A DNA stretch of 64,000 nt, taken from NCBI GenBank assembly GCA_963971575.1, contig OZ020619.1, forward strand, positions 28,834,800-28,898,799, in the 5' to 3' direction. Below the pieces are notes generated by a model. That model searched no databases, had not been told where the DNA came from, and saw only the letters and a program-made list of their open reading frames with translations. The position numbers were made by a program, and so were the translations under genes. The stretch is from Liopterus haemorrhoidalis. Its lineage: Eukaryota > Arthropoda > Insecta > Coleoptera > Dytiscidae. This document shows positions 11,587 through 56,979 of the stretch, in pieces. The number at the start of each line of letters is the position of its first letter. The first letter of the stretch is position 1.

Positions 11587-12714
11587 TTGATGTGAAGTGT
11601 GAATTTTCACACATTGCAGGGTTTCGCAGGTATATAATAAGTGAAGGCGGCATGCTGAGTGTATAGGACAAATTTTGCTTTGTAGTAACCGCGGCAAAAT
11701 GAACGATCTTTTTAAAATAATTTATCGTCTGTTAATCTCAGAGCTTTAAAAACAAATTTTATGTTAAAATATTTTTTTGTTAATTTTAATTCGAATACGT
11801 AATATCATTATTTAGGTTTCTAAATAAGTGCAGTATTTTTTTTATATAACAAGGTTCATTAAGATTTTGAAAATTGGGCCTATGGCTTTCATTGGTTGTC
11901 TTAAATCATACGCTCCGCCCATCTGGCTTCGTATAAATGACACAGAATGAAAATATAATTCCAATTGGTTATTAAATTTACGCTCTTGAAAATTAAATTC
12001 AAAATGTGCTAAAATATAACTAGAATTTTAACAAATTAATTTAAACATAATAAATATGAAAAAAAAACAAAAAATAATATTGACTCCACAAGTCAGGAAC
12101 GAACCTGTGTAGTGAATAACGATCCTGTGTGGTTGTCGAGCAACTGAGCCACTAGACCACCAAACGCTTATCAACTTAGTGTGTTATAAAAGTATATCAT
12201 GTATGCATCGTCAACCAAAAAACACAAAAAATGCGTTATTTTCCGAAAACATAATCTGATCAAAAATTCCTGTTGTACTATTCCGGTTAACACCATTATA
12301 CATTACTTAGAATTTTTTTACATTTTTAGTTTAAACCATCTGGGCTACAGGGTGTGGGACAAAAATTTTTTTGCACAATTTTGGCAAAAATCGCCTCAAA
12401 ATAATTTATTTTGCAAAAATTAAATTTTGATCGATAATCCACGTACTAAGGGCTTTCATTTGATACCCTACTCAGAATTTTAAAAAAATATTTTTGTTTT
12501 CGATGAGCACATATTTGTTTATATTTTTAGGGGGATATGCTTTTTAGATGTTTTAGTATTTTTCCTATGTGCCGGTCAAAGAGTTGTATAAGCATGCCAA
12601 ATTTCAACTCTCTAGGTTTAGCCGTTTGGCTACAATTTTTACCGAACAGACAGACAGACAGACAGACGACAAAATGACGGTATAAGGGTTTTTTGGTCAT
12701 ACCTACAAAACCCT
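11587..12714 (+). repeat. Repeat family B, copy B1 (longest full copy)
   Basis: The copy opens with a TGTGAATTTTCACA hairpin near 11599, then AGGGTTTCGCAGGTAT at 11618. It closes with ATACCTACAAAACCCT, whose complement AGGGTTTTGTAGGTAT matches the left end at 13 of 16 positions. Between them come an AT-rich left half, a tRNA-like block on the opposite strand (12082-12166), a conserved block with TCTGATCAAAAATTCCTGTT and CATCTGGGCTACAGGGTGTG, and a short CAGA tract before GACAAAATGACGGTATAAGG. It encodes no protein. The class is unknown: the inverted ends suggest a DNA element, but no consistent target duplication was found. Confidence 0.85.
12082..12166 (-). ncRNA. tRNA-like cassette of family B copy B1
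   Basis: On the minus strand the block reads TGGTCTAGTGGCTCAG, which fits a tRNA A box, and 40-50 bases later GGTTCGTTCC, which fits a B box. Downstream on that strand come A/T-rich sequence with T-runs of six or more, a possible Pol III terminator. I could not fold a complete cloverleaf: the acceptor and anticodon stems are poor. It is therefore tRNA-like or tRNA-derived, not a supported tRNA gene. The block sits where the other copies carry different tRNA-like sequences. Confidence 0.5.
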
Positions 12715-13405
12715 AACAATATAACTTTGTACACTAGCTTGAGAACTGCCGGTTTAAAAAAATATTGTCTTCTATAAGCCCTAATATATATTGTCCCCCT
12801 TGGTCTCCTACATCTTTGTTATTTAGTATTTTTTTGTATCTCTAATAATAAAAAAAATAATGACGGTGTCCCGTTTCGCTGTTACACCCTGTATATTTAA
12901 GTTTAATTAAATTTAGAAAAAAATTGAAATTCTAACTTTTACAAATTAAATTAATATGAAATATCAAAAAAATAATGTAAATCTCACTCGTTTTTCGTAG
13001 AATTTGAACGGCTGTAGATAGTATTTAATAAATAATTAAAATTTAAAAGGTAATTATTAAAGAGAACCAAGATAACGAAAATTCATTTGTGTGTTTAGGA
13101 AGTAGAGACGGGTGCGGGTTGTAAACTTTAACGGGTCACGATGGGTCAAGACATTACCCGCGTGAACGTGAAGAAAAATGACACTTCGGGCCGAAGGGAC
13201 GTGAACGTGAGTACGAAATTATATATTGTGCGTGAGCAGGCATGAACTTAAAGATCGCAAGACTCACGATTATTTTTTTACATGTTAAAACATGCTTTTT
13301 TAATTTACAGGAAAAAGGGTAAAATTAAAAATTACAAATTGTATACATAATCCCAGGACCTTGTCAGTTTTCAGTTAATTTGTCCATTATATTAGGGGTG
13401 TTTTT

Positions 13406-14501
13406 AGGGTTTTGTAGGTATGATCAAAATACCCTTATACCGTCATTGTGTCGTCTGTCTGTCTGTCAGTAAAAATTGTAGCCAAACGGCTAAACCTAGA
13501 AAGATGAAATTTGTCATTCTTATACAACTCTTTGACCCGCGCATAGGAGAAATACTAAAACATATCCCCCTAAAAATATAAACAAATATGTGAACAGCGA
13601 AAAAAAAAAATTAAATTCTGAGTAGGGTATCAAATGAAAGCCCTTAGTACGTGGATTAACGATCAAAATTTTATTTTTGCAAAATAAATTATTATGAGGC
13701 GATTTTTGCTAAAATTGTGCAAAAAAATGTTGTCCCACATCTCTAGCCCAGATGCTTTAAACTAAAAATCTGAAAAATTTCTAAAGTAATGTACATTGGT
13801 GTGAACCGGAATAGTAAAACAGGAATTTTTGATCAGATTATGTTTTCGGAAAATAACGCATTTTTTGTGGTTTTTGGTTGACGATTTACAAAAGTTATAG
13901 TTAAGTAACTTATATAAGTTATGTAACTAGATTAAAAGACGTATCATGGTCTAATGGTTAGCATGCTCGCTAGTTACCCAGAATTCTAGGGTTCGCTCCC
14001 GAGCAGAGGAGACAATTTTATTTTTGTTTTTTTTTTTCATTTTTATTTTCTTTAAATTATTTTGTCAAAATTCTAGTTATATTTTGGCAAATGTTTCATT
14101 TAATTATTAAGAGCGTAAATTTAATAACCAGTTGGAATGTTGGAATTATATTTTCATTCTATATGTCATGTTCGTATACCAAAGGGACGGAGCATATAAC
14201 AACCAATGGAAGCCATAGGTGCAATTTTCAAAATCTTAATGAACTTTGCTATATAAAAAAAATACTGCACATATTTAGAAACCTGAATAATGGTATTAGG
14301 TATTCGAATTAAAATTAACCAAAAAATATTTTAACATAAATTTTGTTTTTAAACCTCTTAGATTAACAGACGATAAAATATTTTAAAAATATCGTTCATT
14401 TTGCCGTGATTACTACCAAGCAAAAATTGTCCTACACATTCAGCATGCCGCCTTCACTTATTATATACCTGCATAACCCTGAAATGTGTGAAAATTCACA
14501 C
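13406..14501 (-). repeat. Repeat family B, copy B2 (reverse orientation)
   Basis: Same landmarks as B1 on the opposite strand: AGGGTTTTGTAGGTAT at 13406, a GTCTGTCTGTCTGTC tract, CTCTTTGACCCG, GTACTAAGGGC (complement), AACAGGAATTTTTGATCAGA, and at the far side ATATACCTGCATAACCCT ending at 14480 followed by the GTGTGAAAATTCACAC hairpin. It lies wholly inside the hAT element 13103-14807 and so inserted after it. Confidence 0.85.
13939..14011 (+). ncRNA. tRNA-like cassette of family B copy B2
   Basis: Plus-strand A-box-like TGGTCTAATGGTTAGCA and B-box-like GGGTTCGCTCCC are 37-40 bases apart, followed by ATTTTATTTTTG and a long T-run that could stop Pol III. The A-box part resembles tRNA-Glu/Asp D-arms. 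The anticodon arm does not pair well. Orientation relative to the carrier is the same as in B1 (antisense), and the sequence is different. Confidence 0.5.
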
Positions 14502-15429
14502 TTTTTTTAAATACAGTAGTCTACTACACGTTAGAGGCGATTTATTACATGTTAATTTCTGGGTAATTCGTGTTTACGAGTTTCATTAAACCAGATTTTG
14601 ATCCTCCGTGAATATAATCTCCACGTGACCCACCGTAGAAATAGTCACAACCTGACCTGAAGGTCACGTCGTGCGTGAACAATAATTTTGCAGATGTGAG
14701 ACGTGTAAGTTTATTTATCCAGCATGCGTGATCGGACGTATGTTAAAATTTCATCCTCGTGAGAGGGCGTGAATGTAACACAAAAATCGTTCACGCGCCC
14801 GTCTCTATTGGGAAGTTCATTAACTAACTGAAATGAGTTAGGTAAGGTAGACCTGTTTCCAAACCGCCGTAGAAAAACAATATTAATAGCATTAGCTTAA
14901 TCATTCTAACGCTACTTCGTTACAGTATTTTCAATGAATTCTTTGCATGGAAATTCACCATTAACATTAAAGTAACTGAATATACCATGGAATTAATTAA
15001 AAATATATACAAGCTAATACATTGTCCAATTTGAGATCGAAAAATTCTTATGCATAATTATGAGAAATGTTTTACATTTCTTGTGCGTGTAAGTTCATTT
15101 TTTTCATTAACATCTTTTAAATAATTAATTAATGCATATTCTGTGCGTTTATGGTTATACTTCATTGTATTTTGGTGAGATATTTTTTATGAATTACTTG
15201 TCAGGTCATCTTAAAAATATTATAACTTATTATGTATTAAAAATTATAATATTAAAATTTACAATCTCTTTTAAATAAGTTTTCCCATTAATGTTATATA
15301 TTTGAAACACTATTGTTTGGTCTACATTTTAATATTTTATTTTATTATCACGAAAGTTGACAAAAATGATAAAATTAGTTATGGCATGTCTAGACCGATT
15401 CGATCAAAATTTCCGCGCGACTTTGACGC

Positions 15430-15590
15430 GATAATGCCATCAAACAAAGAGAAATAACAATATATGGGAAATAAACACATGTGCTAATCCGATTATTGTT
15501 ATTTTCAAAACAATTAATCAAGAAGTGTGAATCTTCACACCTTGGGATTTCGTAGGTTTGAGTACATTTCATGTGAGAACAATTTGTAGG
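15430..15590 (+). repeat. Repeat family G, copy 1
   Basis: Shares GTGCTAA, GATTATTGTTATT, AAAACAATTAATCAAGAAGT and a TGTGAATCTTCACAC hairpin followed by GGATTTCGTAGGT with 20600-20740. The hairpin and the following word resemble the left end of family B, so G may be a relative that shares only the terminal module. Confidence 0.6.
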
Positions 15591-15599
15591 TTCATTTTG

Positions 15600-16115
15600 A
15601 CAACCTATAATTCAATATATATGTCGTGGCACCCTTCCCCTTCCTCAAAAGGATTTCGGAATTTCTCCACTCCCCCTGTCCTTAATTGATTTTCAGAATT
15701 TCTTCTTCACGTACTTAAATGATTTTCAGAATTTCGCCCACCCGTCCTCTGTGATTTTTAAATATCTGGTCCCCTAAAAGTCTAACTCAATCTGGCCTGT
15801 GAAACATGTAGAATTCATATACACAATGTATCAAAGTAGAGGGAATACGATTTTTCTCAAAATCGCGATGAGTAAGTTAGTAAAAAAAATTGATGACCTA
15901 AGTTGACCATAATAACATTAAAAATTATTAAAAATATTTCGCTTTCAAATTATACTTCCAAGTAAGACTTGAAAGTGAATAATTATATATATTTTTTTAT
16001 TAAGCTCCGAGCTAAAGATAGATCAATCATCGGTCGTTTAAAAAAAAAAGTAGCTTTGGGTGCCCCATTCTAAATTATTACCATTGTTTTTTACTGAGCT
16101 TTCTATTATCCCCTT
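15600..16115. other. Gene-free stretch
   Basis: Contains a short imperfect triplication of an ATTTTCAGAATTTC-like word between about 15650 and 15740. Otherwise nothing recognisable. Confidence 0.45.
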
Positions 16116-16117
16116 CA

Positions 16118-16225
16118 GGACTACGCCGGAGTATACTCGGGCGGCTATTATGTGCGAAAATTCCCACACCCGAGATAACTCGGGCAAGCTTTACCTGCAG
16201 AAAAGATTACTCCCGAATGTACTCG
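16118..16225. repeat. Cluster of CTCGGGC palindromic words, possible piggyBac-like end
   Basis: Three near-repeats, GAGTATACTCGGGCGG, GAGATAACTCGGGCAA and AATGTACTCGGGCGA, occur within 80 bp after CCCCTTCAGGACTACG. The first is self-complementary around TATA. C-rich starts followed by such palindromes occur at ends of some insect piggyBac-like elements, but the flank here is TTAT, not TTAA, and no partner end was found. Confidence 0.35.
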
Positions 16226-16717
16226 GGCGAAAATAAATACGATTCATGGTTTGTGGAAGCGAGACGAAAGACAGCTACGATGATTCAAACGAGGTACGAG
16301 AGAAAATGAATATTTCTTTTATTTCTCGACCCACACTATGCACCATAATATCAACTTTCAATCCCATTTTGGGCCCGAAATGGCTTTTATGAAGGATATA
16401 TATGTTCAGTAAATAAAATTCATTCCTATTTCTATTTTTGTTCGATTGTGAAATATTCAATTTTGGCCAATGAGGACCCATATTTTTTATTAATAATATA
16501 ATTTCATAGTTAAGCACGATAGTTTTAATATAACGCACTGTATCCAGTTTCACGTCTGAGTACTTTTCACAAATCAAAACAAATGAAGTTAAGACCGCCG
16601 GCCTAAATTCACTAACTCATACACACTAACAACTCGCCGCTATTGCCCTTTCCAGTTCATTTTTGTTACTTATGTAGATAAATACTAGAAATCGCATGTG
16701 GCAACGCTGTCTCGGGA

Positions 16718-16941
16718 CACAACGAGGTAGTGTCCCGGGCATGGATTTCTAGATATCTAAATTTTTAAAATCTAACACATATGAAAAATATTAGAATTAG
16801 AAATAATAAAAATAAATATATGCAGATATATTTAGCTAGTTTAATGCAATTTTAAAGTATAAATGAGATTATAATTCATTTTTTCTTACGAAAAATGTTT
16901 AGGAGGACACTGCCTCAGCGCCACCCTGTCTCATCCGCCAC
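16718..16941. mobile_element. Solo hAT-like end near a palindrome
   Basis: The complement of the end at 16941 reads CAGTGGCGGATGAGACAGGG, a typical hAT terminus. About 200 bp upstream is an imperfect hairpin, CTCGGGACAC ... GTGTCCCGGG (16712-16741). A left terminus with matching target duplication was not found, so only one end is supported. Confidence 0.5.
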
Positions 16942-17475: not shown

Positions 17476-18248
17476 CTGCAACACACATAACATCTCAGAG
17501 TTGCGGTTTTCTGACTCTCACCAAACACATCACTGCTCTCAGAACAGTTTTCATCACTACCAAACATTGGGATATTGTCCAAATTTATTATATCGATTAA
17601 CGCTTCAGATGTGGTTTACAATGTTTAACTTCCAAAAGCCATTTAAACTTCGCGATTCTTTAGATATTTGAACTAGTTTTATAAGTGTTACAAATTATGG
17701 GCATTAGAGAAAAGAATTTTGGATATTTATTTGGTGAATTAAAGGCGGTGGAATTTGTATATACAGTAAGTTCTGCTATTACGCAAGTTTTTAAAGGGGG
17801 TTTTATTCGCGATCATGTATTATGGAACGTTTACATTACTGCGCGATTATAAATTTAATCATACGTGATTCTGACTACTTAACTGGATACACAAACAACT
17901 GCTGCTACTGACAGACAAAATGCTGACAATGTTATACAATTTTGGTAGAAATATATTATAAAAATTGATGTGAAGTGTGAATATTCACACATTTCAGGGT
18001 TTCGCAGGTATATAATAAGTGAAGGCGGTATGCTGAGTGTGTAGGACAAATTTTACTTTGTAGTAATCACGGCAAAATGAACGATATTTTTAAAATAATT
18101 TATCGTCTGTTAATCATATAATAAGACTGGTTATTAAATTTACGCTCATAAAAATTAAATACAACATTTGTCAAAATATAACTAGAATTTTGACAAAATA
18201 ATTTCAACATAATAAAAATGCAAAAAAAAAAACAGAAAAAATAAAATT

Positions 18249-18326
18249 CACTCCGTACTCGAACTCGAAACCCTTCGTCTTCCAGCCAGTTTAAGAGCGC
18301 TCTAACGCATGTAGCCATCGAACGCT
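18249..18326 (-). ncRNA. tRNA-like cassette of family B copy B3
   Basis: On the minus strand GATGGCTACATGCGTTAGAG fits an A box with the usual TGGC..A..GGTAGAGC pattern, and GAGTTCGAGTAC fits a B box. T-rich sequence with a TTTTTTTTTT run follows. The sequence between the boxes differs completely from B1 and B2. No good cloverleaf. Confidence 0.5.
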
Positions 18327-18803
18327 ATGCATGTGAGTGTCTTACATTGGTATAACTTTTGTACTTTGTGAACCAAAAACCACAAAAAATGCGTTATTTT
18401 CCAAAAACATAATCTGATCAAAAATTCCTGTTGTACTATTTCGGTTCACACCAATATACATTACTTAGAATTTTTTTAGATTTTTAGTTTAAACCATCTG
18501 GGCTACAGGGTGTGGGACAAAAATTTTTTTGCACATTTTTGGCAAAAATCGCATCAAAATAATTTATTTTGCAAAAATAAAAATTTGATCGTTAATCCAC
18601 GTACTAAGGGCTTTCAATTGATACCCTACTCAGAATTTAAAAAAAATATTTTTGTTTTCGATGAGCACATATTTGTTTATATTTTTAGGGGGGTATGTTT
18701 TTTAGATGTTTTAGTATTTTTCCTATGTGCGGGTCAAAGAGTTGTATAAGCATGCCAAATTTCAACTCTCTAGGTTTAGCCGTTTGGCTACAATTTTTAC
18801 CGA

Positions 18804-18804
<1 letters not shown>

Positions 18805-18868
<64 letters not shown>
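18805..18868. repeat. (CAGA)16 microsatellite
   Basis: An uninterrupted tetranucleotide tract at the fixed position near the 3' end of family B. The other copies have about 2 to 4 units, so this is a copy-specific expansion. Confidence 0.95.
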
Positions 18869-18869
<1 letters not shown>

Positions 18870-19049
18870 GACAAAATGACGGTATAAGGGTTTTTTGGTC
18901 ATACCTACAAAACCCTAAAAATGGTCATTATCAACACAGTAGAAGCATGGATTGATGTATCAAAGGAATGCTTTCATCATGTGTAGAAAAAGATTACCCC
19001 TGATTTAATTCTTGATTATCTAGGATTTCAAGCTTCAGAGCAATTTAAA

Positions 19050-19373
19050 AAACTGATGTTAAGTGTGAATTTTCACACATTTCAGGGTTTCGCAGGTATT
19101 TAGTAAGTAAATGATGATTATTTGGGATGCCAAAACAAATTTAATGTTATTTTTTTTTCTTAATTTTAATTCAAATGCCTTATACCATTATTTAGGTTTC
19201 TAAATATGTGCAGCATTTTTTTTTTTATATATATATAGCAAGTTTCATTAAGATTTTGCAAATTGCGCCTATGGCTTCCATTGGTTGTTTTAAATCATAA
19301 CCCCGCCCCTCTGATTTCGTGTATTCAATTTCAACAATTTCCACTGGTTATTAAATTTACGCTTTTAAAAATT
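19050..19373 (+). repeat. Repeat family B, truncated copy B6 (left half only)
   Basis: Starts with the TGTGAATTTTCACA hairpin and AGGGTTTCGCAGGTAT at 19083. It runs through TTATTAAATTTACGC and stops in the AAAAATTAAA run, directly against a mariner fragment, close to where the tRNA-like block sits in other copies. Confidence 0.75.
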
Positions 19374-19770
19374 AAAAATTAAACGTGCTTGGGCGCCCAC
19401 TGCGTGGATCGTCTTCTAGTGATGTTCTACCGGTTTTAAAACGATCGATCCACCGATAAACAGTACTTTTGGATTCTGCAGACTCACCAAATACTCCTTG
19501 CAGACGCTGAATTATTTCTGATGTTTTCACACCTTCTTTCCACAAAAATAAAATTATTGCTCTTTGAGATTTTGCTGCGTCTTCCATGGTTACAAAAACA
19601 GTGCTATGAAAACGCGTCTATATCAGTCGAACACCTAAATCAGACTGAACAATATTGCACTAGATAGTTGCACAAACATGTCAAGACTTGTCTGGCACCA
19701 ATAACATTGCCTATACGTTCTGCGTAATTTAATTATAGCACAATTCCCAGAATTTAGGAAACATCCCTCG
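19374..19770 (-). pseudogene. 5' fragment of a mariner with TACGAGGG-type end
   Basis: The 71-codon minus-strand frame at 19372-19587 is the first helix-turn-helix of a mariner transposase. It shows GVKTSEIIQRLQGVFGES, STVYRWIDRFKTGR and EDDPRSGRPST, and is cut off inside the linker. Its upstream side ends at 19770 with an inverted terminus (complement GAGGGATGTTTCC, before it TA). The catalytic domain and the other terminus are missing. The break coincides with the AT-rich border of a family B copy. The terminus resembles that of the element at 57850-58540, suggesting one mariner lineage. Confidence 0.8.
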
Positions 19771-20135
19771 TATATTACACATATACAAGCTATAAAGTCT
19801 TATAAAGCCTGTAGGAAATTTTGCCCAGGGCCTTGTGAGTTGTAAAGTAGGCACTGGTTATAGGGAGGCCCATGTTCTGCAGTGGATGAATTCTGCGAAT
19901 AGATGATAGCATGCAGAGTTATTTTTGTAATTAAGTAAATGGCCTTTAGAACAGATGTTTTTAAAATTTATTTTCGTTAATCGATGTATATTTACATGTC
20001 AAGTAATGTGTTCTTATTTTTGTCTATGAATTATCGTGTCCCATTCACAAGTTGGTAGTTTATACACACGCTATTTCTATATTTATCTTGCAAGGAGACT
20101 TGACATGTAAAATAAATAAATAAAAATGTACTCAC

Positions 20136-20174
20136 CTAGCTAACGCATTGCTGCCAAGTTGTCTCTTTCCAGAA
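20136..20174 (-). CDS. Host-gene 39-nt micro-exon (exon 2)
   Basis: On the minus strand ATTGTTTCAG is followed by 39 bases and then GTGAGT, giving strong acceptor and donor sites. The first base completes a split codon with the exon at 51029-51118 (AG+T, Ser). Then SGKRQLGSNALA is read, and the last two bases, AG, join the C of the exon at 17475 to give Ser. Both junctions preserve frame, and the short basic segment leads into the Ser-rich stretch of exon 3. An exon this small would be missed by length-based gene finding. It lies between the mariner fragment and a hairpin element, in sequence free of repeats. Confidence 0.6.
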   Translation of the reverse strand, partial: FWKETTWQQCVS

Positions 20175-20353
20175 CTGAAACAATATTACAAAATATATTA
20201 GATTAAACTAGTAAATAAGGAAGTAAAAAGAAGCAAATATTATGTATTATGTAACTTTCAAGCGTATTTATGTACCGTAACCAAGCAAATTTAAGGTATA
20301 CTAGTTTTCATCCAGTTTTGATTCGCAGCTTTTATGACTCAGACTTAATGACC

Positions 20354-20478
20354 AGTTGCACCAGCTTTCCTTCAATTTTAAGCATTTCCTAAATCGCAAA
20401 AACACCTAATAACACAAAGCGTTGCTACAAATTTGATATTTAAAGGATGATTAAAATTTAAGGAAATGTGGTGCAACT
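20354..20478. mobile_element. Short hairpin MITE
   Basis: An imperfect palindrome with ends AGTTGCACCAGCTTTCC and (complement) AGTTGCACCACATTTCC, 125 bp in all. AGTTGCACCA-ended miniature elements are common in insect genomes. No target duplication could be fixed. No coding capacity. Confidence 0.7.
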
Positions 20479-20599
20479 AGGTATAAGGAAGTTAATTGGA
20501 TACCCTCTTATTACGTGTCAATACTGGTTCAACAATACTGCGCGAACGTGTTACGCGACTATATAGTTGCTACTTCATAATTAACGTAAAACTAATTGG

Positions 20600-20740
20600 T
20601 ATTTTGAATAACAATATCTGTGAAATACCCCATATGTGCTAACCAGATTATTGTTATTATGAAAACAATTAATCAAGAAGTATAAATTTTCACACATTTC
20701 AGGATTTCGTAGGTATCTAGTAAATACATTTTTGGGTAAA
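20600..20740 (+). repeat. Repeat family G, copy 2
   Basis: Matches 15430-15590 through GTGCTAACC, GATTATTGTTATTATGAAAA, CAATTAATCAAGAAGT, then a decayed hairpin AAATTTTCACAC and AGGATTTCGTAGGTAT. Confidence 0.6.
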
Positions 20741-20906
20741 TGTTTAAATAAACACATCATTATAAATGGGTTTGGAGAAACTCATTTCCCAAACTCCGTC
20801 AAGCACAGTAGTTTTTATTAGTTTTAATGTTAAGAACAAGACAGAAATTAGTTCAGAATACTTTTGAACTTAATTTAAGCCATTTGGGTTCTTCCGATAC
20901 TAGCTA

Positions 20907-22163
20907 CCAGGTCAACAAGTATGAAATGCGGATTTTTTTAAAAATAAAACACATTAAACTCAAAAAAACAGTAAAAGTTTATTTATTCAAAGTATGCTCC
21001 ATTAGAAGTTATACATTTTTCCCATCTTTCAGGCAATTTGTGAATACCTCGCCAGTAGAACTCTTCCCCTTTCCCCGCAAACCATTCATCTAACCATTCT
21101 TTCACATTTTCATATGAACAAAAGTGCTGCTCGGCAAGTGCGTGACCCATCGATGCGAACAAGTGGTAATCTGAAGGGGCCAAGTCTGGTGCGTAAGCGG
21201 CATGAGGTAGCACTTCCCACTGGAGTGCCTCCAATGTGTTGCAAACTGCTTTTGCCTTATGTGATGGAGCGTTATCGTGAAGAAAGATTACCTTGTGCTG
21301 TCTTCTTTCTTATTTTGGTCGTTTTATGAGCAGCGAATGGTTCAATTCGATCGGTTGTTGTTGGTAGCGTTGGGTATTAACTGTTTCCCCAGGTTTTAAC
21401 AATTCATAATAGACCATACCCTTTTGGTCTCACCAAGTACAGAACATTGTCTTTTTGCCAAAGCGATTCGGTCTTGCAGTTGATGTGAATGGTGAGCCTG
21501 GGTTCACCCATGATTTTTTGCGTTTGGGATTTTCAAAATAAATCCATTTTTCATCGCCAGTAATGATACGATGCAAAATAGACTTTCTTTTGTATCGTGC
21601 AAGCAAAATTTCATAAGTTTTTTTGCGTTTTTCCATCTGCCTCTCATTCAATGCATGTGGAACCCATCTGCCGACTTTCTGGATCTTACCCATCTCTCGT
21701 AGGCGATTGGAAACAGCTTGTTGACTAACGCCTAACTGCTCTGCTAGTTGTTTTTGTGATTGACTATCGTCTTCCAGTAGCAATGTTTCCAATTTTGTAT
21801 CTTCATATTGTTTTGGAGGTTTTCCATGTTCTAAGTCACCACTTTTGAAACGCCGAAACCATCGTTCACACGTATCTTGCAATGGAGCATATTCACCATA
21901 AGCTTCTCGAAGCAGTCGGTATGATTCAGCAGCAGTTTTTTTCAAATTAAAACAAAACAGTAGTACTGTCCGCGAATGCTCTTTATTTGGCACAAAATTT
22001 GACATTTTTAACACAGTGAAACAAAACTATATGAACACTTTTCAAATTATAACCTATACGCATTTGACACTTAATGATAACTTAACAAAACGCCATATGT
22101 GTTGAAACTATACACTCTGTTTGCGCGGCAAGTTTTAAAAAAATTTCATACTTGTAGACCTGG
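20907..22163 (-). mobile_element. Nearly intact Mos1-like (mauritiana-type) mariner element
   Basis: The element is 1257 bp, close to the usual 1.3 kb. Ends: CCAGGTCAACAAGTATGAAA at 20907 and the complement of the right end CCAGGTCTACAAGTATGAAA, one difference. Both are flanked by TA. The end sequence is close to the Mos1 terminus pattern (CAGGTGTACAAGTA). The single gene runs leftwards and fills most of the element. Confidence 0.93.
20983..22005 (-). pseudogene. Mariner transposase, DD34D, two in-frame stops
   Basis: This is a cut-and-paste transposase of about 340 residues, a normal length. I chose the start at 22005 because MSNFVPNKE matches the family N-terminus; an in-frame ATG also lies at 22014. 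Helix-turn-helix domains occupy the first ~110 residues, including QLGVSQQAVSNRL and the WVPHALNE linker. The catalytic triad is visible: TGDEKWIYF, HDNAPSHKAK and APDLAPSDYHLF, with 34 residues between the second and third Asp. Damage is limited to a TGA at 21430-21432, replacing the second Trp of a WW pair, and a TAA at 21310-21312. There is no frameshift. The copy is therefore a recent arrival that is now inactive. Confidence 0.93.
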
Positions 22164-24672: not shown

Positions 24673-26066
24673 TTACAAGTCCAAATCATTCTCTGAATCA
24701 GTCTCTAAATCAATGATTATAGTACGTTCTATTTGAATATAACTGTCCTCAGTTTTAATAACGTGATTTACACAATTTTTCCAACTATCTACATGGATAT
24801 TTTCCACTTCTTTTTTTATAAGTTCTATCACAGTGCCGTTTAAAGTGGGAGAAATATTATTCCGTTTTATTCTCGCCTTTAACTGACTCCACATTTGTTC
24901 AATAGGATTGAATATACAATAATACGGAGGTAGTCGTAAAACTGTGTGTCCTTTGCATTGAGCAATATTATCGCAAACATATTCTTTATAAAAACTATAA
25001 CTTTTTAATAATTTAATTAAACAATTTTTTATATAACTTTCTTCAAAGTAAATATCATTCTTACATAAAAAGTCTTGGATTTCCTTCTTACTGTTTGCAC
25101 TATTCGGTACTTTATTTAGTTGCCGACTATGGTCACTTGCATTGTCCATAACAATAACACTGTTAGCCGGTATATTCGGGAGTAATTTATTTTCGAACCA
25201 GTTTTCGAACATTTCCACCGTGGTATCGTCATGGTAGTCGAGTCTAGAATCTTTGATATTTTTCGCAGAAAGCAAGAGTGCATTCGGTATCCATCCAGTT
25301 TCAGAACCTGCATGAAGTATCGTAATACGTTTACCTTTATTAGACGGTGCTCTTGTTTGACATTTATTTGACGTATCCACCCAACCTTTTGACTTTGTTT
25401 CATGTGTGTCGTACCAAGTTTCATCTAAATAATTATTGACTTTTTATCTTCTCTGTATTTTTTAATGTTTTTTAAATAATGTTGTCTCAAAAGTTTTAAT
25501 CGCTCTGACTCCATAAGGAACTGCTTTTTATTTAAAGTTTTAAATTGAAACCCTATACTTTTAAGGGCACGCCATAAGGTCACCTTTGAACAATTAATTT
25601 CACACTGGTCTTGGATTAATCTTTTGAGCAATATGTCCAATGTTGGCACATTTTGTTCGGTGTACATTTGGTAAATTTTCTGCCGTATTACATTTTTCTG
25701 GAAACCATCCAAACATTTTGATATGCCTGAATCCTTTCGTTTTCTTTTCCTATCAATGGATTTATTTACAATATTCCATACTGTTGTCATCGCTACTTTC
25801 GTTGCCTTGCTGTTCTCTTCTAATGCCGCTTGTTTGTTTTTGCGGTTCCTTAAATATAAATACACATTGGCCACAATTTCTTTAGCTTCTACAGGTAAAT
25901 ATATACAAGTTTTTTCCCGATTTTTTTTTTTTTTTATTGTATCTTGCACTATATCATCGTCTTCTATTATGGTCACATAGTCATCTGCTTCATTTGCTTG
26001 CACAGAAGTTAATTGTTCGTTCCAAGGACGCCACATTTTTCTAACACGTACTGAACTATTTAACAC
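24673..26066 (-). pseudogene. IS630/Tc1-like DDE transposase with one frameshift
   Basis: Two minus-strand frames, 25425-26066 (213 aa) and 24673-25380 (235 aa), form one gene of about 460 residues once a single shift near 25425-25440 is allowed for. The N-terminal part is rich in Lys, with helix-turn-helix-like segments (KQAALEENSKATKVAMTTV; LLKRLIQDQCEINCSKVTL). The first Asp lies in LDETWYDTHE, across the shift. The second is in VIVMDNASDHS and the Glu is in FNPIEQMWSQLK. About 81 residues separate the second Asp from the Glu, far more than in Tc1 or mariner. That recalls the described DD82E (Sailor-type) branch, which I could not verify. Termini were not found. Confidence 0.75.
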
Positions 26067-26069
26067 AAA

Positions 26070-27199: not shown

Positions 27200-27738
27200 C
27201 CAGCAGAACCTATATTGACAACCGCGACATATTCAAGATAACATCAAAAATAGACTACCAAGTGCAATAACTATAAATAGATTTCATAAAAGAACAAAAT
27301 AATTACAAATATATTTGTAGAATGAAGCTTTAACTACAATTTGCCGCATTGTACGCAAATATGCGTCTAATAGTTTACAAGATGGCGTCTATAATGCAAT
27401 TTATTTACTTACAGTCACAACATTTTTTTACAATTAAAAATATCCTATTCGATCAGGATTCTCCAAACTTTTTTGACCGTCGACCCTTTCAATAATTACT
27501 CGTCTTTATATCGAGCCCCTATAATTGTATACAAATATAAGACCTGACAATTAACAGATCAAGATGGAAAACTTATGTGACTGAGGCCAAAAGTCAATCC
27601 GACTGATAGTGTCCAAAGAGGATACATAAGCCTACAACTAAAGCATAATCCTACAATTCAAAATTTTCAAGGTATGATAGGTGGAGAAGAAATCAAAATT
27701 TTCCAAAAATTTTAAGTGATAACCTGAGGGTTATCCGC
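27200..27738. other. Gene-free stretch
   Basis: Nothing recognised. Confidence 0.45.
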
Positions 27739-27739
27739 C

Positions 27740-27806
27740 GACCTCGGTAGCGCAAAGGTAGCGCCCCTGCTTCTCGTGCTAAAGGTCCCGGGTTCGAATC
27801 TAGGTC
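27740..27806 (+). tRNA. tRNA-like sequence (tRNA pseudogene or SINE head)
   Basis: The D-arm TAGCGCAAAGGTAGCGC closely follows the eukaryotic elongator tRNA-Met D-arm, and GGGTTCGAATC is a good B box. Outer pairs GACCT / AGGTC are possible. The anticodon arm does not pair (stem halves CCTGC and GCTAA), and the T-stem and acceptor pairings compete for the same bases. A functional tRNA is therefore unlikely. No T-run follows at once. It may be a decayed tRNA or the Pol III head of a SINE, but its downstream sequence does not match the SINE at 3190-3460. Confidence 0.45.
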
Positions 27807-28260
27807 AGTTAAACATTCGCATCAAGTTTTGATGTATAGATTGTTACTAATTATATTTCAGATTGTTAGCTTTGTATAAGAAACTTTTGAGAACTATACT
27901 GTTGTACCTCCGCTTAACTTGACAAAAAACAAAATAAAAGAAAAAGTACACTTTAATTACAGTCCTAAATAAATTTAGTGCTTACAAATATTTAATCTTA
28001 TAATATATAACAAAAGTACCTAATGAAAAACTAATATTTGAACAAAAACTTTAATTAAAATTTCATACCTCTTCTTATTCTTTTCCAATTCAAAAAACAT
28101 TTAACAAACTTTAAAACTTTTACACACATCCGGTAATAATTTAATTCACAATCAAACTGATTATTAAACACATACTTGAGCAGTAACAATTCAACAAATA
28201 TGTTGGAGAACAATTTGACATTAGCGGTTTCTATCGGTCTAATGACACGAAGTGACACTG

Positions 28261-29929: not shown

Positions 29930-30747
29930 TTGATGTGAAGTGTGAATTTTCACACATTTCAGGGTTTCGCAGGTATTTAGTAAGTGAATGATGATTATTT
30001 GGGATGCCAAAACTAATTTTATGTTAAAATATTTTTTTGTTAATTTTAATTCGAATGCCAAATACCATTATTTAGGTTTCTAAATATGTGCAGTATTTTT
30101 TTATATAGCAAGGTTCATTAAAATTTTGAAATTTGCGCCTATGGCTTCCATTGGTTGTTTAAGTCATAAGCTGCGCCCCTCTGATTTCGTATACATTCAA
30201 AAATAGAATTAAATTGTAATTTCACTTCTTACCGGTTATTAAATTTACGCTTTTAAAAATTAAATGCAACATTTGCCAAAATATAACTAGAATTTTGACA
30301 AAATAATTTAAACAAAATAAAAATGCAAAAAAAAGCAGAAAAAATAAAATTGGCAGGAAGCGAAGCGTAGTTTAAAACTTAGGAAGCGAGAACGCTAACC
30401 ATTAGACTACGGACGTTTACTCGTTTACTGTGTTACATAGCGAATTAAATATTTTACATATTTTAGTTAAAAACACAAAAAATGCATTATTTTCCGAAAA
30501 CATAATCTGATCAAAAATTCCTGTTGTACTATTCCGGTTCACACCAATGTACATTACTTAGAATTTTTTCAGATTTTTAGTTCAAACCATCTGTGCTACA
30601 GGGTGTGGCACAAATTTTTTTTTGCACTCTTTTGGCAAAATTTCCTCCAAATAATTTATTTTGCAAAAATAAAATTTTGATCGTTAATCCACAGACAGAC
30701 GACAAAATGACGGTATAAGGGTTTTTTGGTCATACCTACAAAACCCT
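29930..30747 (+). repeat. Repeat family B, copy B4
   Basis: Hairpin TGTGAATTTTCACA, AGGGTTTCGCAGGTAT at 29961 and ACCTACAAAACCCT ending at 30747. Compared with B1, the block from GTACTAAGGGC to the CAGA tract is deleted, so the sequence jumps from TCGTTAATCCAC to AGACAGACGAC. It carries its own tRNA-like block. Confidence 0.85.
30351..30416 (-). ncRNA. tRNA-like cassette of family B copy B4
   Basis: Minus strand: CGTAGTCTAATGGTTAGCG is a good A box, CGCTTCGCTTCC is a degenerate B box, then AATTTTATTTTTTCTGC with T-runs. It differs from the blocks in B1-B3 between the boxes and at both edges. Confidence 0.45.
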
Positions 30748-47841: not shown

Positions 47842-47869
47842 TTTTAATTCGGTTATAGCTATTGTGCAA

Positions 47870-48585: not shown

Positions 48586-48591
48586 TTTGTT

Positions 48592-49221: not shown

Positions 49222-49266
49222 TATGAGCGCAAATTTTAAAATATGGTCTGAGACATATTTCATGAC

Positions 49267-51384: not shown

Positions 51385-51750
51385 TTATGATTTTTCAGGC
51401 ATTACAAAAATCATTATAACGTCACTCATGTAACTGTCCATCTGTCTGTCTGTATAGTAAAAAAGGTGGCCAAACAACTCTTTGATCCATAACAGGAAAT
51501 CTTTAGAAAGCTCAAAAAAACTTATGACGGGAAAAATATATAGAAATATGTGTTCAACGAAAACTTAAATTACAAATTAAAACAAAAAACTTTTGTCCCC
51601 ACCCTAATTCCTAGAGGATTTGATCTAAAAATCTGAAAAAAAATCAATAATATACATTTATGGGAACCGGAATAGTTCAACAGCAATTTTTGTTCAAATT
51701 AGTTTTTTGGAAAGTATATAATTATTGTGTTGTTGAAAAAAATTATTATT
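51385..51750 (-). repeat. Diverged copy of repeat family B (B7)
   Basis: Reverse-orientation landmarks in order: CATCTGTCTGTCTGT, GGCCAAACAACTCTTTGATC, AAATATGTGTTCAACGAAAA, TTTTGTCCCCACCCTAA, GATCTAAAAATCTGAAAAA, GGGAACCGGAATAGTTCAAC. No tRNA-like block could be found beyond it. Confidence 0.6.
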
Positions 51751-51759
51751 TTTCAAAAA

Positions 51760-52670
51760 TGTATTGTGTGGTATCAAAAGAAAGCTCTTAAAGTCTGAAG
51801 AACGGAAAGTAGTTTTACCATTTCTTTACTTTAACACGATTTTTTTTTTGTTAAAAATATACTAAAAACCCCGTACCCTTTAATTCAAAGCGGTTAAACA
51901 TAAAATCTGAAATTTTTTTTTTTATGATATTGCAGTTGGATGAAGCCCCCTCAATACTTTCACTGTCTGTAAGACAGTGGTTAAATGTTAATTTTCCACA
52001 AAAATGGAAATTTCCAAATTTTTCCATCTATTACATAAAACAAATTTGATAACGTTTTTGGAGGTGATCACATTAATTCAGCCAATAATAATTATTAATA
52101 CACTAAACATTAAATTAATACATAAAACATATTAATATACAATATAGTTATGCAATAGTTGACATAAACATTTAGTTATCAAACTTATTTCCAAGGACAT
52201 GTACACATAGGCGTACATTCTATTTTTATTACCTTATACGAATTGATTATTAAATGAACATTATTTTTCTCTACACGCCAATGAGATGACAACAGGTATG
52301 AAGTTAGGAACACATATTTTCGTTGATTCTCGGGTGAGTTCGGACCAACGAAGTAATCTGATTGGTTCTTTGTTAAATTGGGATTTTTAGCTGTGGATTA
52401 GAATACAGTTTTGATATTTTTAAACTCATTGTTTACTGTTATGTAACTGACAAGAAATTTTGATCGCACGGTATAAATAATAATATTCAGTTCATTTAGA
52501 CTTTTCTAATACTGCATATTTTCAGATAAGTTGTGTGATTTAAATCACTAAATATTTCACTAAAACTAGGAATTTGTAATATCTTGCGAAATAAAGATTA
52601 TATATTATATATTTTCAGATGAAATAAATTAACAAAAAATTGTTTGGTAACAAAAAAATAATAAATAAGT
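51760..52670. other. Gene-free stretch
   Basis: AT-rich; nothing recognised apart from weak continuation of family B. Confidence 0.4.
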
Positions 52671-52677
52671 ATAATAC

Positions 52678-52745
52678 AGATGAACTCGGATATAATGTAC
52701 CCCAGATATAACGAACACTCGATTATAACAAACAAAAAACAAAAA
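52678..52745. mobile_element. Possible pogo/Tigger-like terminus
   Basis: TA is followed by CAGATGAACTCGGATATAAT, then GATATAACGAACACTCGATT. Many pogo/Tigger ends have a GAACCTCG..ATAACGAAC pattern and a TA target. No partner or transposase was found next to it. Confidence 0.4.
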
Positions 52746-52913
52746 AAATCCCGTAACACAAAACCTATAATTACTATGTATTTAGTGCTTTCTTTCATAT
52801 ATATGCTATACACCTACCATGAAACATGAGCATACAGAACCGCGAGATTTAAAAAAATATATTATGAACATATTATTACGAATATTATTTTTTAACAAAT
52901 AAAATACGATATA

Positions 52914-54224
52914 CAAGGTGTCTCAAAAGAAATTTTATATTTATTTAGCTTACTGCGTGAACGCAACGTATCCGAGGGGCGCGGGGGTTATGTCAATCGG
53001 TAGCCTGGCTCTTGGGAATTTAGTCGCTAGGGAGCGTTTCTCGGGAGCAGACCGCGCGTTATGCGTGCGAGAGTTTTACAAAAACGGTGATTCGGCGACT
53101 GTAGCGCGTAGAAAATTCTGCAGTATTCGAGGTTTTCGCCACTTAAATGATGCGCCAAGCATTCCTCTCATTCGACATTGGGTTAAAAAGTTTGAAGAGA
53201 CTGGTACAACGCTGGATAAATCAAAATCCGGGCGACCTAGGTCATCAAGAACGGTAGAAAACGTGGAGAATGTTAATCAGTCTGTTCGTGACGACCCGAA
53301 CCTTTCAATTCGGAAGCGCGCAAGTGCTTTAAATGTGCCTAGATCATCATTACATCGCATTATGCACAAAGACCTAAAGCTGCACCCCTACAAAATTCAA
53401 TTGGTGCAAGAATAGAAAGCCCCAAGATGCCAGTCAGAGGCTTAATTTCGTAAATCAGGTGATTGAGCGATTTTCAACGTTTACCAACATTTTGTTTTCG
53501 GATGAAGCTCATTTTCATCTTAATGGCCACGTAAATAAGCAGAACTGCCGCTACTGGAGTGCAACGAATCCGAAACGCAAACATCAGAAACCCCTACATT
53601 CGCCTAAAGTGACCGTATGGGCTGCGATGTCGGCGCGAGGAATTATCGGCCCTTACTTTTTTGAAGACGAAAGGGGGCGTGCAGTTACAGTGAATTTAGA
53701 GCGTTACGTGGAGATGTTAGACAACTTCTTGGTACCTGAACTGCAAAACTTTCCTGGCTGTAACCAAAGAACATGGTTCCAACAGGACGGAGCAACTTCA
53801 CACACGTCCAATATGTCTCTGCCACGTGTTCGTGAAATTTTCTCAGGCAAATTGATCTCCCGGAGAGGTGACATAAATTGGCCTCCACGCAGTCCAGATT
53901 TAACCCCTATGGACTTTTTCCTATGGGGTTATCTTAAATCTAAAGTTTACACCAATAAACCGACTTCACTGGCGCATTTGAAAGAAAATATCCGTCACGA
54001 AATGGCAGCCATCCCTGAGTCCACCTGCCGAGACGTCATAAGTAATTTTACTGTTCGATTAAATGAGTGCCGAGAACGCGAGGGTCTACATTTAGACGAT
54101 ATTATTTTTAAGAAATAAATCCCCAAAAAGTGTATTTTAATAATTAATAAACATTTTTTCTATATACGGCTTACTTTTTTTTTAATCGATCCACTAAATA
54201 TAAAATTTCTTTTGAGACACCTTG
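52914..54224 (+). mobile_element. Nearly intact DD41D mariner-group element
   Basis: Perfect 30-bp inverted ends beginning CAAGGTGTCTCAAAAGAAAT at 52914-52943 and 54195-54224, with TA on both sides (52912-52913, 54225-54226). At 1311 bp with one gene, it is close to full length for the group. The perfect ends point to recent arrival. Confidence 0.95.
52990..54118 (+). pseudogene. Mariner-group transposase with one frameshift (DD41D)
   Basis: About 375 residues. The start at 52990 (MSIGSLALGN) is chosen because the upstream in-frame ATG at 52918 lies inside the terminal repeat. Helix-turn-helix wording: ATVARRKFCSIRGFR, PLIRHWVKKFEETG, SIRKRASALNVPRSSLHRIM. Catalytic Asp words: FSDEAHFH, FQQDGATSHT and SPDLTPMDFFLWG. 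Aligned on the last Asp of the third word, 41 residues separate the second and third Asp, as in the rosa-type DD41D branch. The only visible damage is an inserted base with a TAG near 53413-53416, which splits the frame; the second half runs from about 53417 to the stop at 54118. Confidence 0.9.
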
Positions 54225-54599
54225 TATTTTAAATATAAATCGTTTAGACTTCAAATTTTTAATTCAAGGAATTGCGCTGAGATTCAAGTATATTCAAGGA
54301 ATTCAAGGTACAATTTCAAATTCCAGGAGATTCCAGGAGTGGTAGACACCATGTCGTGGTAGATTCTTTCCCTTGAAATTCTTCCGAGATTGCCACTAAA
54401 TTATATTTTTGGTTTTTTGCTAAGAGACGAAGTACAATATTTGCAGCAATGCTCAAATTAATGCTGGATTAAGGTTTATGTGCCCTAGGTTGAATGGATA
54501 AAAGGGGAACCCTAAAGGAAGTGATAAGAAAAAAGAAAAAAATGAAAAACTATACGTGACTCCGGCACAGCCAAAACACTGGTCAAAATGATTTGACAT

Positions 54600-54690
54600 G
54601 ACGTATAATATATGTACTTTTTCTGTAACAGTCAATCGTCATTTGTTAAGAATTAATTCGCAAATCTGGTTAACTCTTTCATCGATTTTA
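54600..54690 (-). pseudogene. Mariner helix-turn-helix scrap upstream of repeat F
   Basis: Minus-strand ELILNK, stop, RLTVTEKV and a CQ-like end parallel the scraps at 44335 and 59840. Repeat F begins about 140 bp downstream at 54833, the same arrangement as at 44335-45722. Confidence 0.4.
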
Positions 54691-54832
54691 CAAATTGAAG
54701 GTCTTTAAAAGCCGACGTTTGAAGGCCTCTTCTAGAATAGCTGTTTTCAAAAATTCTATAATTTCAACCACCGCATTTCCAAGTTACAATTTTCAATTTC
54801 AATACAATTTCACACAAACAACTTGCTTTTCG

Positions 54833-54978
54833 ATCAGGTCTATCTCAAAAATCACCAAGATAAAAAAAATCGAATTACAAAACCCGCTATAAAATTGGAA
54901 CGAAATAACTTAGCTAAACCAGCTCAACGGCAATCAACTTACAATTGAGATCTGCATCATGTCAAGTTATTAGGTATA
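54833..54978 (+). repeat. Dispersed repeat family F, copy 3
   Basis: TCGATCAGGTCTATCTCAAA, AATCGAATTACAAAACCCGC, TATAAAATTGGAACGAAATA, GCTCAACGGCAATCAACTTA and ATCATGTCAAGTTATT. Confidence 0.7.
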
Positions 54979-54984
54979 ACGCAA

Positions 54985-56025
54985 CGCACGCAGTTCGCGT
55001 ATTCATTTTTATCAAACTTGGTATACAATGCCATCTAGCGACAACACAAAATACCAATACTTACATATCTGATATATTTTTGTGTTTACTGGGCTGAATA
55101 CAACCCATCATTTTACAAATTGTAAATTAAATTGTTTTTAGATTATTTTCCCAATATTAAATACACTATAAAATTCACAGCACTAACTAAATAGCCACAA
55201 CATTTGCTGAAAATGTTTTCAATGAGACAAAAAAACAATTTTGGCAGAGTTCCAAAGTTGCAAAACGTTATGTATGACGAAAATCACATGATCTCAACAT
55301 CTGAATATTTATTATGGAATTTATGTAGTATGGCATTTGGCAACTGCTGCATGGATTTCAAAAAGTGTTAATAAATTTTGGGATAAAGTCATCGACAAAT
55401 TTTCCACTCGATATTTTAGATACTTATGAGATTTTCTATTTCATATCGAAGTGCCGGAATGGAAGTAGACAATTACAGTTGATGGAACACATAATAAGAT
55501 TAGAAAATTGATTTGCTCACTTTTCAGTGTTTCGTAAGTATCTAGTAAGTAAAAACGACTGACAGCAGGCCCAAATATTTATTCAGTTAAAATATTTCTA
55601 AGTTATTTTTCTACATAGTTTCCCTGAACAACTAAGCATTTGCGTCACCGGTTTATTTATTTAACCGCATTTTACATAAAAAATTGTTTCTATATCTCGA
55701 ATTTTTCTAAGTAAAAATTTTCTATAAATCGGGGAATCCCAGCCGATCAGATCGGAACATCCCAGGCGTACGATAGTTAATTTAGGCGTAAAAGTGAATT
55801 AGTTTAAATCCAACCGGGGTACATCGAGTTTATTTTATGCGCTAGGCCAGCGATGGTGAACCTTTCCCCCAGACGAGTCAAAATTTAATTTTTAATTTTG
55901 AAGATTCAAATCGCGGGTGGAAACTATAATGCGTAAATAAAATTTTGCCGCTCTAGGGTAAATTTTTTTGTGTGGAATCTCTGCTTATCTCGTTAACTCT
56001 ACTCGAGTTAGTGACTTTGTATTTG
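54985..56025. other. Mostly gene-free
   Basis: A family-G/B-like word, TTCAGTGTTTCGTAAGTATC, occurs near 55526. CTATATCTCGAATTTTT near 55690 resembles pogo-type ends. No gene recognised. Confidence 0.4.
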
Positions 56026-56029
56026 AAGT

Positions 56030-56979
56030 GTATAATGCAGGTATATAATAAGTAATAGTTGAATCCCATCTTATTTATTATTATCATACTTGTCGATTTC
56101 TCTACACTCTGAACTTCATATGCTTATCTCTGAGTTCAATAACCGGACAATATGATGTGTTCTTTATTAATTTTAAAATTGTTATTTTATATCGTGACTA
56201 TTAACTAAGCTCTGATGAAGATTTAAATTAAAATCGAAACGTTAGCGAAGTTAATAAATTTGTTTTTATTTTCTGACTGGTCCGAATCCCATTACGTTCA
56301 ACTATAATAGAATTAAATTATAATTTCAACACTTCCCACTGGTTATTAAATTTACGCTTTTAAAAATTAAAATTGACAGGAATCGAACTCTAGTTTGCAA
56401 ATAACAAAGCAACGACGAAACGCATGACGCTACGAGGGCTTACTTATCTACTGTGTTACATAGCGAATTAAATATTTAACATATTTTAGTTAAAAACACA
56501 AAAAATTCGTTATTTTCTGAAAACATAATCTGATCAAAAATTCCTGTTGTGCTATTCCGGTTCACACCAAAGTACATTACTTACAATTTTTTAAGATTTT
56601 TAGTTTAAACCATCTGGGCTACAGGGTGTGGGACAAAATTATTATTGCACAATTGTGGCAAAAATCGCGTCAAAATAATTTATTTTGCAAAAATAAAATT
56701 TTGATCGTTAATCCACGTACTAAGGGTTAATTTGATACCCTACTCAGAATTTAAAAAAAAAAAAATTTTCGATGTGTAGATATTTGTTTATATTTTTAGG
56801 GGGATATGTTTTTTAGATGTTTTAATATTTTTCCTATGTGCCGGTCAAAGAGTTGTATAAGCATGCCAAATTTCAACTCTCTAGGTTTAGCCGTTTAGCT
56901 ACAATTTTTACTGAACAGACAGACAGACAGACGACAAAATGACGGTATAAGGGTTTTTTGGTCATACCTACAAAACCCT
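56030..56979 (+). repeat. Repeat family B, copy B5
   Basis: The right two thirds (56305-56979) is colinear with B1, with TCTGATCAAAAATTCCTGTT, CATCTGGGCTACAGGGTGTG and ACCTACAAAACCCT ending at 56979. The left end is represented only by GCAGGTATATAATAAGT at about 56036, separated by about 250 bp of other sequence. It carries its own tRNA-like block. Confidence 0.75.
56373..56440 (-). ncRNA. tRNA-like cassette of family B copy B5
   Basis: Minus strand: TCGTAGCGTCATGCGTTTCG at the A-box position and AGAGTTCGATTCCTGTCA, a near-consensus B box, followed by AATTTT. The segment between the boxes is unrelated to those in B1-B4. The 3' flank of the block (ACTGTGTTACATAGCGAATT on the plus strand) is shared with B4 but not with B1-B3. 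Confidence 0.5.

Follow-up and report, generated by a model that had tools for sequence, protein, structure and literature searches.

A 64-kb stretch of the 1.02-Gb genome of the beetle Liopterus haemorrhoidalis (assembly GCA_963971575.1, OZ020619.1, positions 28,834,800-28,898,799; hereafter the window) was analysed. It carries five copies, B1 to B5, of one repeat family, family B. Judged by its sequence, family B is a non-autonomous Helentron (HINE), i.e. a rolling-circle DNA transposon, and each copy holds at one internal place a tRNA-like block (the cassette) preceded by a variable upstream stretch. Upstream stretch and cassette are together called the module, and the HINE body to the left and right of it the flanks. 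The module resembles a promoter for RNA polymerase III (Pol III), and between closely related lineages it appears to change faster than either flank. The copies and cassettes had been located by an original prediction, and extraction and alignment confirmed them at the following coordinates.

11587..12714, minus strand: B1, full-length HINE (5' end 12714, 3' end 11587) with the AGGGTTTTGTAGGTATG end, GTCT, and ATACCTGCGAAACCCT plus palindrome.
12082..12166, minus strand: B1 cassette, A box TGGTCTAGTGGC, B box GGTTCGTTCCT, spacing 54.
12167..12222, minus strand: B1 variable upstream stretch, containing a TAACAC word.
13406..14501, plus strand: B2, HINE, 5' end 13406, the final 10 bases at its 3' end changed.
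13870..13938, plus strand: B2 variable upstream stretch.
13939..14011, plus strand: B2 cassette, A box TGGTCTAATGGT, B box GGTTCGCTCCC, spacing 43.
17965..18916, minus strand: B3, HINE, right body partly deleted, GTCT array long.
18249..18326, minus strand: B3 cassette, A box TGGCTACATGCG (the weakest), B box GTTTCGAGTTC, spacing 46.
18327..18380, minus strand: B3 variable upstream stretch.
29930..30747, minus strand: B4, HINE, left body deleted next to the microsatellite.
30351..30416, minus strand: B4 cassette, A box TAGTCTAATGGT, B box GCTTCGCTTCC, spacing 43.
30417..30473, minus strand: B4 upstream stretch, p-distance 0.08 to that of B5, though the A-box parts differ.
56030..56979, minus strand: B5, HINE, 5' end intact, 3' half rearranged.
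56373..56440, minus strand: B5 cassette, aligned A-box word TAGCGTCATGCG, B box AGTTCGATTCC, spacing 43.
56441..56496, minus strand: B5 upstream stretch.

Copies were aligned in the element's own 5'-3' direction. The sample was widened by adding 200 kb of neighbouring DNA to the window, giving one region of 264 kb. When both flanks were required, 10 copies were retained, six of them new (L018, L019, L027, L028, L033 and L034). B5, whose right flank is damaged, was added by hand to give a set of 11 copies.

From 5' to 3', the ends of family B read T-run / AGGGTTTTGTAGGTATGACCAAAAAACCCT...(GTCT)n and ...ATACCTGCGAAACCCTGAAATGTGTGAAAATTCACACTTCACATCAA / T-run. Subterminal inverted repeats (subTIRs) lie near both ends, AGGGTTTTGTAGGTATG at the 5' end and ATACCTGCGAAACCCT ahead of a 3' palindrome. 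The left flank contains an internal repeat, CAAAAAACCCT, facing the 5' subTIR, and a (GTCT)n microsatellite in B1, B2, B3 and B5, of which a short remnant is left in B4. The palindrome stands 10 nt from the 3' terminus in B1, B3, B4, L028, L033 and L034. It is present in B2, where the sequence beyond it is altered. It was not found in B5, nor, by a motif search, at the own 3' ends of L018, L019 and L027. End motifs were scanned in the window and the first 36 loci (L001 overlaps the window, so some ends were counted twice). TT directly preceded the 5' motif in 27 of 34 matches, four of the seven misses being the inverted 3' subTIR itself, and directly followed the 3' end in 27 of 28 matches. 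These flanking bases alone indicate insertion between two Ts in T-rich DNA. Marks given for HINEs in passages of PMC4067079 and PMC7492417 are subTIRs, an internal repeat facing the 5' subTIR, a left-flank microsatellite, a 3' palindrome and a T-rich target. Family B was assigned to the HINEs because its subTIRs, internal repeat, GTCT microsatellite, 3' palindrome and insertion between Ts are among them. Except for GTCT, no central tandem repeats were seen in family B, and no direct terminal repeats (long terminal repeats, LTRs) were seen in the copies, whose ends consist of inverted subTIRs and the palindrome.

For B1 and B2, the best 40 genome matches each were scored. Besides the copy itself, 39 long matches were obtained, 93-98% identical for B1 and 83-89% identical for B2. 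The copy L028 (positions 7830-8903 of its locus) belongs to a very young subfamily, with 39 other scored genome matches that are 96-99% identical over the full length; the HINE family has therefore been recently active. Words of the left block are also present in other HINE-like stretches. The conserved left-block pattern gave no match in viral_contigs or in the GTDB genome_contigs. In L018, a related stretch (6809-7357) matches the left block twice in tandem, as in the central repeats of other HINEs, and no cassette was noticed by eye at 6780-7800. In the window, a HINE 3' half (19054-19389, within 19040-20760) lies beside a sequence that looked, by eye, like the beginning of a mariner-type transposase; another HINE-like 3' end is found at 20677-20723.

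All 11 copies share one layout: the flanks are colinear over the left part, similarity is lost at one point, and it is regained past a T-run, so that a divergent tRNA-like block lies between conserved flanks. Outside the block bounded by the upstream stretch and the T-run, every aligned copy consists of HINE body. Mean pairwise identity per 30-column bin was 0.85-0.95 in the left flank, 0.81 in the edge bin, 0.47-0.66 in the upstream stretch and cassette, 0.74 in the T-run, 0.84-0.92 in the 120 columns to the right of the T-run and 0.66-0.90 further right. The concentration of divergence in the cassette and the stretch upstream of it was thus correctly predicted. The cassettes had also been described as antisense to their carrier; all five are in fact sense in the element's own 5'-3' frame, the other end having been taken as the start. 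A shared type of T-run had been proposed as well, and this applies to B2, B3 and B4 (AATTTTATTTTT) but not to B1 (AATATTATTTTTT) or B5 (AATTTTAATTTTT); in B5 the flank adjoining the T-run is lost. The trailer is GAGGAGACAAT-like in seven of the 11 copies and shorter, CCTGTCAAT-like, in L027, L028, B4 and B5, L027 being the most degraded. An exact TAACAC word stands about 26-35 nt ahead of the A box in seven of the 11.

Promoter boxes were scored against the patterns TRGYNNARNNGG (A box) and GGTTCGANTCC (B box), with a maximum of 18. The B1-B5 cassettes score 14-15. On each 64-kb strand, a Markov-1 model yields about 12 scores of at least 14, and the actual sequence of the window yields 22. Over the 11 copies, the box scores sum to 163, against 123.3±3.1 for dinucleotide shuffles (maximum 134, 300 shuffles), and the tRNA-like words are, as predicted, not at chance level. 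For individual copies, a fraction of 0-0.023 of the 300 shuffles reached the box score, B3 and B1 being the weakest. The A-to-B spacing is 43 in five copies and 41, 46, 53, 54 and 54 in others. For B5, the A-box word chosen by the shuffle-test scan is a shifted one (spacing 61); with an equal score of 15, the aligned word has spacing 43 and brings the copies with this spacing to six. With A and B boxes at tRNA-like spacing followed by a T-run, the module has the structure of a predicted type 2 (tRNA-type) Pol III promoter.

Decay within a lineage was measured on 16 B1-type copies, taken from the 40 best-scoring B1 relatives (one of them, L004, includes extra sequence from a second match). The cassette is identical in type across all 16 loci. 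Differences from the consensus amounted to 1.05% in the cassette, 0.91% in the upstream stretch, 0.88% in the left flank, 0.88% in the right flank and 2.9% in the T-run. Since the B1 cassette decays about as fast as the flanks, it is not unstable after insertion, and post-insertion hypermutation was rejected for B1 (about 1% everywhere but in the T-run). The original prediction had named a cassette decaying at the rate of its flanks as the observation that would speak against it. Such decay is seen within B1, at about 1%, and not between lineages.

Between lineages, use was made of the B2 relatives. The 39 other scored matches, out of 12,375 first-look candidates, were combined with B2, L018 and L019 into a set of 42 copies and split by cassette into subtypes a (n=29), b (n=6) and c (n=7). 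The consensus sequences of a and b differ at 0/82 left, 0/47 upstream, 4/76 cassette (plus one gap) and 1/89 right sites; a and c at 0/82, 2/47, 8/77 and 0/89; and b and c at 0/82, 2/47, 12/76 (plus one gap) and 1/89. Summed over both flanks, the differences are 1/171 (a-b), 0/171 (a-c) and 1/171 (b-c), and Fisher tests of cassette against flanks gave p = 0.03, 7e-5 and 4e-6, respectively. Because the split used the cassette, shared alleles were also counted without any split. Alleles present in at least five of the 42 copies were found at 12/76 cassette sites, 3/78 left, 2/47 upstream and 2/112 right sites (12/76 against 7/237 elsewhere, p = 0.0002). The residual substitution rate was 0.054 in the cassette and 0.026-0.039 elsewhere, which fits the existence of further small lineages. 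Transversions made up 9/12 of the shared cassette alleles and 69/172 of the private ones; this count was too small and was not used. Between the B1 consensus and that of a, differences were 2/82 in the left flank, 29/127 plus 19 gap columns in the module and 9/89 in the right flank. These comparisons support a module that changes faster than either flank between closely related lineages while its box words persist. Fast evolution of a Pol III-type unit, one of the options raised originally, is thus favoured by close subtypes that differ in the cassette and hardly in either flank.

The left half has a history of its own. Left-flank distances among the 11 copies, with L003 representing B1 in the correlations, are star-like (mean 0.084) and do not correlate with module-part distances (rho -0.26 to -0.43). 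Upstream and A-part distances covary (rho 0.62, Mantel p 0.002). In B4 the upstream stretch is B5-like (0.08), and the A part is close to that of B2 (0.18) and far from that of B5 (0.46). Two recently active subfamilies were compared over their whole length, using the B1 consensus and the single copy L028. They differ at 14/468 positions (3%) in the left half, 21/48 (44%) upstream, 45/76 (59%) in the cassette, 39/164 (24%) and 25/156 (16%; 83 gap columns) on the right and 6/55 (11%) at the 3' end. The edge ahead of the module is abrupt and the right side is intermediate. Because the left distances are star-like and uncorrelated with the cassette and the left edge is abrupt, homogenisation or exchange of left halves among lineages is supported. 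Exchange between copies, which had been among the options first offered, would therefore hold for this half.

A relation of the cassettes to tRNA was sought in several ways. At default settings, ARAGORN gave no tRNA match in the window and 36 loci, and three of the five cassettes were matched only at a 70% threshold. RF00005 was absent from the window at the gathering threshold and gave no match at E<=10 for the B1/B2 stretch and L034. With no tRNA model firing at default settings, identity with a cloverleaf tRNA gene or a known RNA family was not supported. Predicted transcripts showed no excess folding stability (z -0.3 to -1.2, four consensus sequences). Rfam matches below gathering were taken as chance: PYLIS_5 (L034, 25.7 bits, E 0.02), DUF2693 (B1), mir-44 (B2 upstream stretch) and tmRNA (L034, 4.5 bits). 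Ten cassettes were also compared with 10 host tRNA species (20 genes out of 61 listed). Similarity was weak, with p 0.010-0.025 for seven cassettes and 0.10-0.54 for the other three. Thr-AGT was the best tRNA for six of the 10, and none had a clear parent among these species. Their scores reached at most 14.5, against 19.0 in the same test for a head at 27748 resembling that of a short interspersed nuclear element (SINE). No SINE tail was recognised around the cassette; a decayed target duplication was not searched for.

That head (27738-27812, plus strand) is separate from family B and tRNA-derived, with A box TAGCGCAAAGGT, B box GGTTCGAATCT and a box score of 16. It resembles host tRNA-Ala, matches RF00005 at 14.2 bits, below gathering, and is probably a SINE head. 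A first look at RF00005 in the genome returned 86,628 candidate places, of which 63 were scored; the number suggests a very large pool of tRNA-like repeats.

The modules themselves are related. When they were searched against the 264 kb (E<=0.05), 28 of the 55 module pairs matched directly, which connects all 11. For the most part, the matches span 38-143 nt at 65-85% identity; a further match, inverted, lies within B2 itself. Outside family B, only two 31-base matches (E 0.026; window positions 15100 and 34032) were returned.

We consider it probable that family B is a HINE with one Pol III-type unit of old origin, in which fast change of the module and homogenisation of left halves both contribute to the contrast with the flanks. 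Where other HINEs hold central tandem repeats, its centre would be one small unit, oriented in sense and made up of the upstream stretch, both boxes and a T-run terminator. A single old origin is the most likely, the source being either a tRNA gene or the head of a tRNA-derived SINE. The unit would have lost the cloverleaf and survived as a promoter, and would have been inherited through many source lineages, diverging between them much faster than the flanks. The contrast would come partly from left halves being homogenised or swapped, with the sharp edge just ahead of the module, and partly from real fast evolution of the module. As the most likely step, occupancy by Pol III/TFIIIC may keep copies open or expose single strands for the Helentron Rep. 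Source elements would thus keep their boxes, and the rest of the module would be free, or pushed, to change.

Several observations weigh against this interpretation. The 11 copies come from a single 264-kb region. Direct matches cover only 28/55 module pairs, some of them in the upstream stretch alone. Those of B1 and B3 span the upstream stretch and the A half and none reaches the B half, so the common origin of their B halves is deduced from position. Part of the B1-L028 module cannot be aligned, which makes the 53% module difference a rough figure, and this is one pair of young subfamilies with a single copy on one side. Subtypes a, b and c are defined by their cassettes, and cassette variability within them is 0.052 (a), 0.061 (b) and 0.084 (c), against 0.025-0.059 in the flanks. 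In B1 and B2, the B box falls one base short of a full consensus match. Conservation of the box columns exceeds that of the other module columns only slightly (rank 13 of 116 shifts), and the boxes were rejected as the module's most conserved blocks; within individual subtype-a copies, they mutate like the rest. On these two grounds, selection on the boxes would be shown between lineages at best. Transcription of the module and its role are, finally, predictions from the DNA.

Other histories were weighed against the same data. The cassette and right half could represent old, neutrally diverged lineages whose left half was overwritten again and again by one successful version, either by recombination or by template switching during rolling-circle replication, with the cassette changing no faster than usual. 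The sharp left edge between B1 and L028 (a rise from 3% to about 50%) and the intermediate values of the right half, the right flank of B1 against a (9/89, left 2/82), the star-like left distances and the B4 combination of a B5-like upstream stretch with a B2-like A part all agree with this, as do oyster HINEs with related flanks and unrelated centres (described in part of PMC7492417). However, a, b and c share both flanks (left 0/82, right 0-1/89) and still differ at 4-12 of about 76 cassette sites, and the 120 columns beyond the T-run retain 0.84-0.92 identity against 0.47-0.66 in the module; replacement of the left half as the whole explanation is unlikely. Relaxed decay, in which a functionless tRNA-like relic drifts while transposition constrains the rest of the element, would account for the lack of a cloverleaf at default settings and of an unusual fold, and for subtype-a boxes mutating like their surroundings; the recurrence of left-block words in other HINE-like stretches means that the left flank may be constrained. 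Yet drift should not exceed the neutral rate, and between a and c the flanks, the right one included, differ at 0/171 sites and the cassette at 8/77. Boxes also exceed shuffles in 11/11 strongly diverged copies, and relaxed decay is judged improbable.

The original prediction had listed repeated tRNA capture and the insertion of different SINE heads among its options. On this view, tRNAs or SINE heads would have arrived independently at one receptive site, at least in some lineages such as B1 and B3. The weak tRNA similarity of 7/10 cassettes (p 0.010-0.025), the fact that B1 and B3 match other modules directly no further than the A half, the 86,628 first-look places as possible donors and a Heliconius repeat combining a SINE with a Helitron-like element (mentioned in part of PMC4016481) would allow it. 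Against it, the modules are interlinked by homology, 6/10 cassettes have the same best tRNA and none a clear parent among the 10 species, and the SINE-like head at 27748 reaches 19.0 in the test; capture was not borne out and seems very unlikely. A bolder form of the preferred reading, that of one old Pol III-type unit, is a transposon that would use its own Pol III transcription for mobilisation or chromatin escape and whose transcribed sequence would be driven to diversify, for example by small-RNA silencing or by lineages competing with one another; each successful burst would then bring a new module with unchanged flanks. This we regard as unlikely.

Elsewhere in the window, frames related to transposase genes were found. 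An open frame at 21430-22026 (minus strand) matches the Mos1 helix-turn-helix domain and, weakly, part of a mariner transposase. At 24673-26069 (minus strand), a pair of overlapping frames, of which one carries a DDE_3 endonuclease domain and the other has no Pfam match, is probably a broken DDE transposase gene. Two overlapping frames at 52903-54118 (plus strand), which match a helix-turn-helix (DUF4817) and, below the cut-off, DDE_3, are probably a frameshifted transposase gene.

In the parts of the literature covered, family B resembles HINE/DINE-1 elements in its subTIRs, internal repeat, microsatellite, 3' palindrome, T-rich target and modular layout, and differs in having a single tRNA-like Pol III-type unit as its centre where theirs is a tandem array. 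In oyster, Cg_HINE elements are likewise modular (left flank, centre, right flank), and one group combines related flanks with unrelated centres (PMC7492417, in part). No tRNA or Pol III unit is described for HINEs in the accessible text of PMC4067079, where 'tRNA' occurs 0 times, and of PMC7492417. The TRIMp3 elements Cassandra, Helenus and Ajax (PMC10886601, in part) also are short non-autonomous mobile elements with a Pol III promoter derived from a small-RNA gene and with conservation around the promoter motifs, but these are LTR retrotransposons with the promoter in the LTR, whereas family B lacks LTRs and belongs to the rolling-circle DNA elements; the word 'Helitron' occurs 0 times in that paper. 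In Heliconius, Metulj subfamilies 3 and 4 have a tRNA-derived head carried by a DNA element, and in one case a SINE is found together with a Helitron-like element (PMC4016481, in part). There, a SINE subfamily is embedded, whereas family B has no recognised SINE tail and its head is split into many diverged versions at a fixed place. A Helentron, Helitron or HINE with a tRNA-like Pol III promoter was not found in the literature search, in its partial coverage (subscription papers and Repbase lay outside its scope). The original prediction that no described element class has this layout therefore fails for the carrier, a described HINE, and stands, within that search, for the tRNA-like promoter module.

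The carrier class is thus known, and the new part would be an apparent fixed-position, fast-changing tRNA-like promoter in a HINE, a combination not found described. If the Pol III unit works, rolling-circle transposons would join LTR elements and SINEs in having adopted a tRNA-like promoter. This would raise the testable question of whether Pol III transcription aids a DNA element whose movement depends on single-stranded DNA. Within one genome, a high-copy family in which module and flanks contrast so strongly offers a natural series in which recombination, relaxed drift and diversifying selection may be separated.

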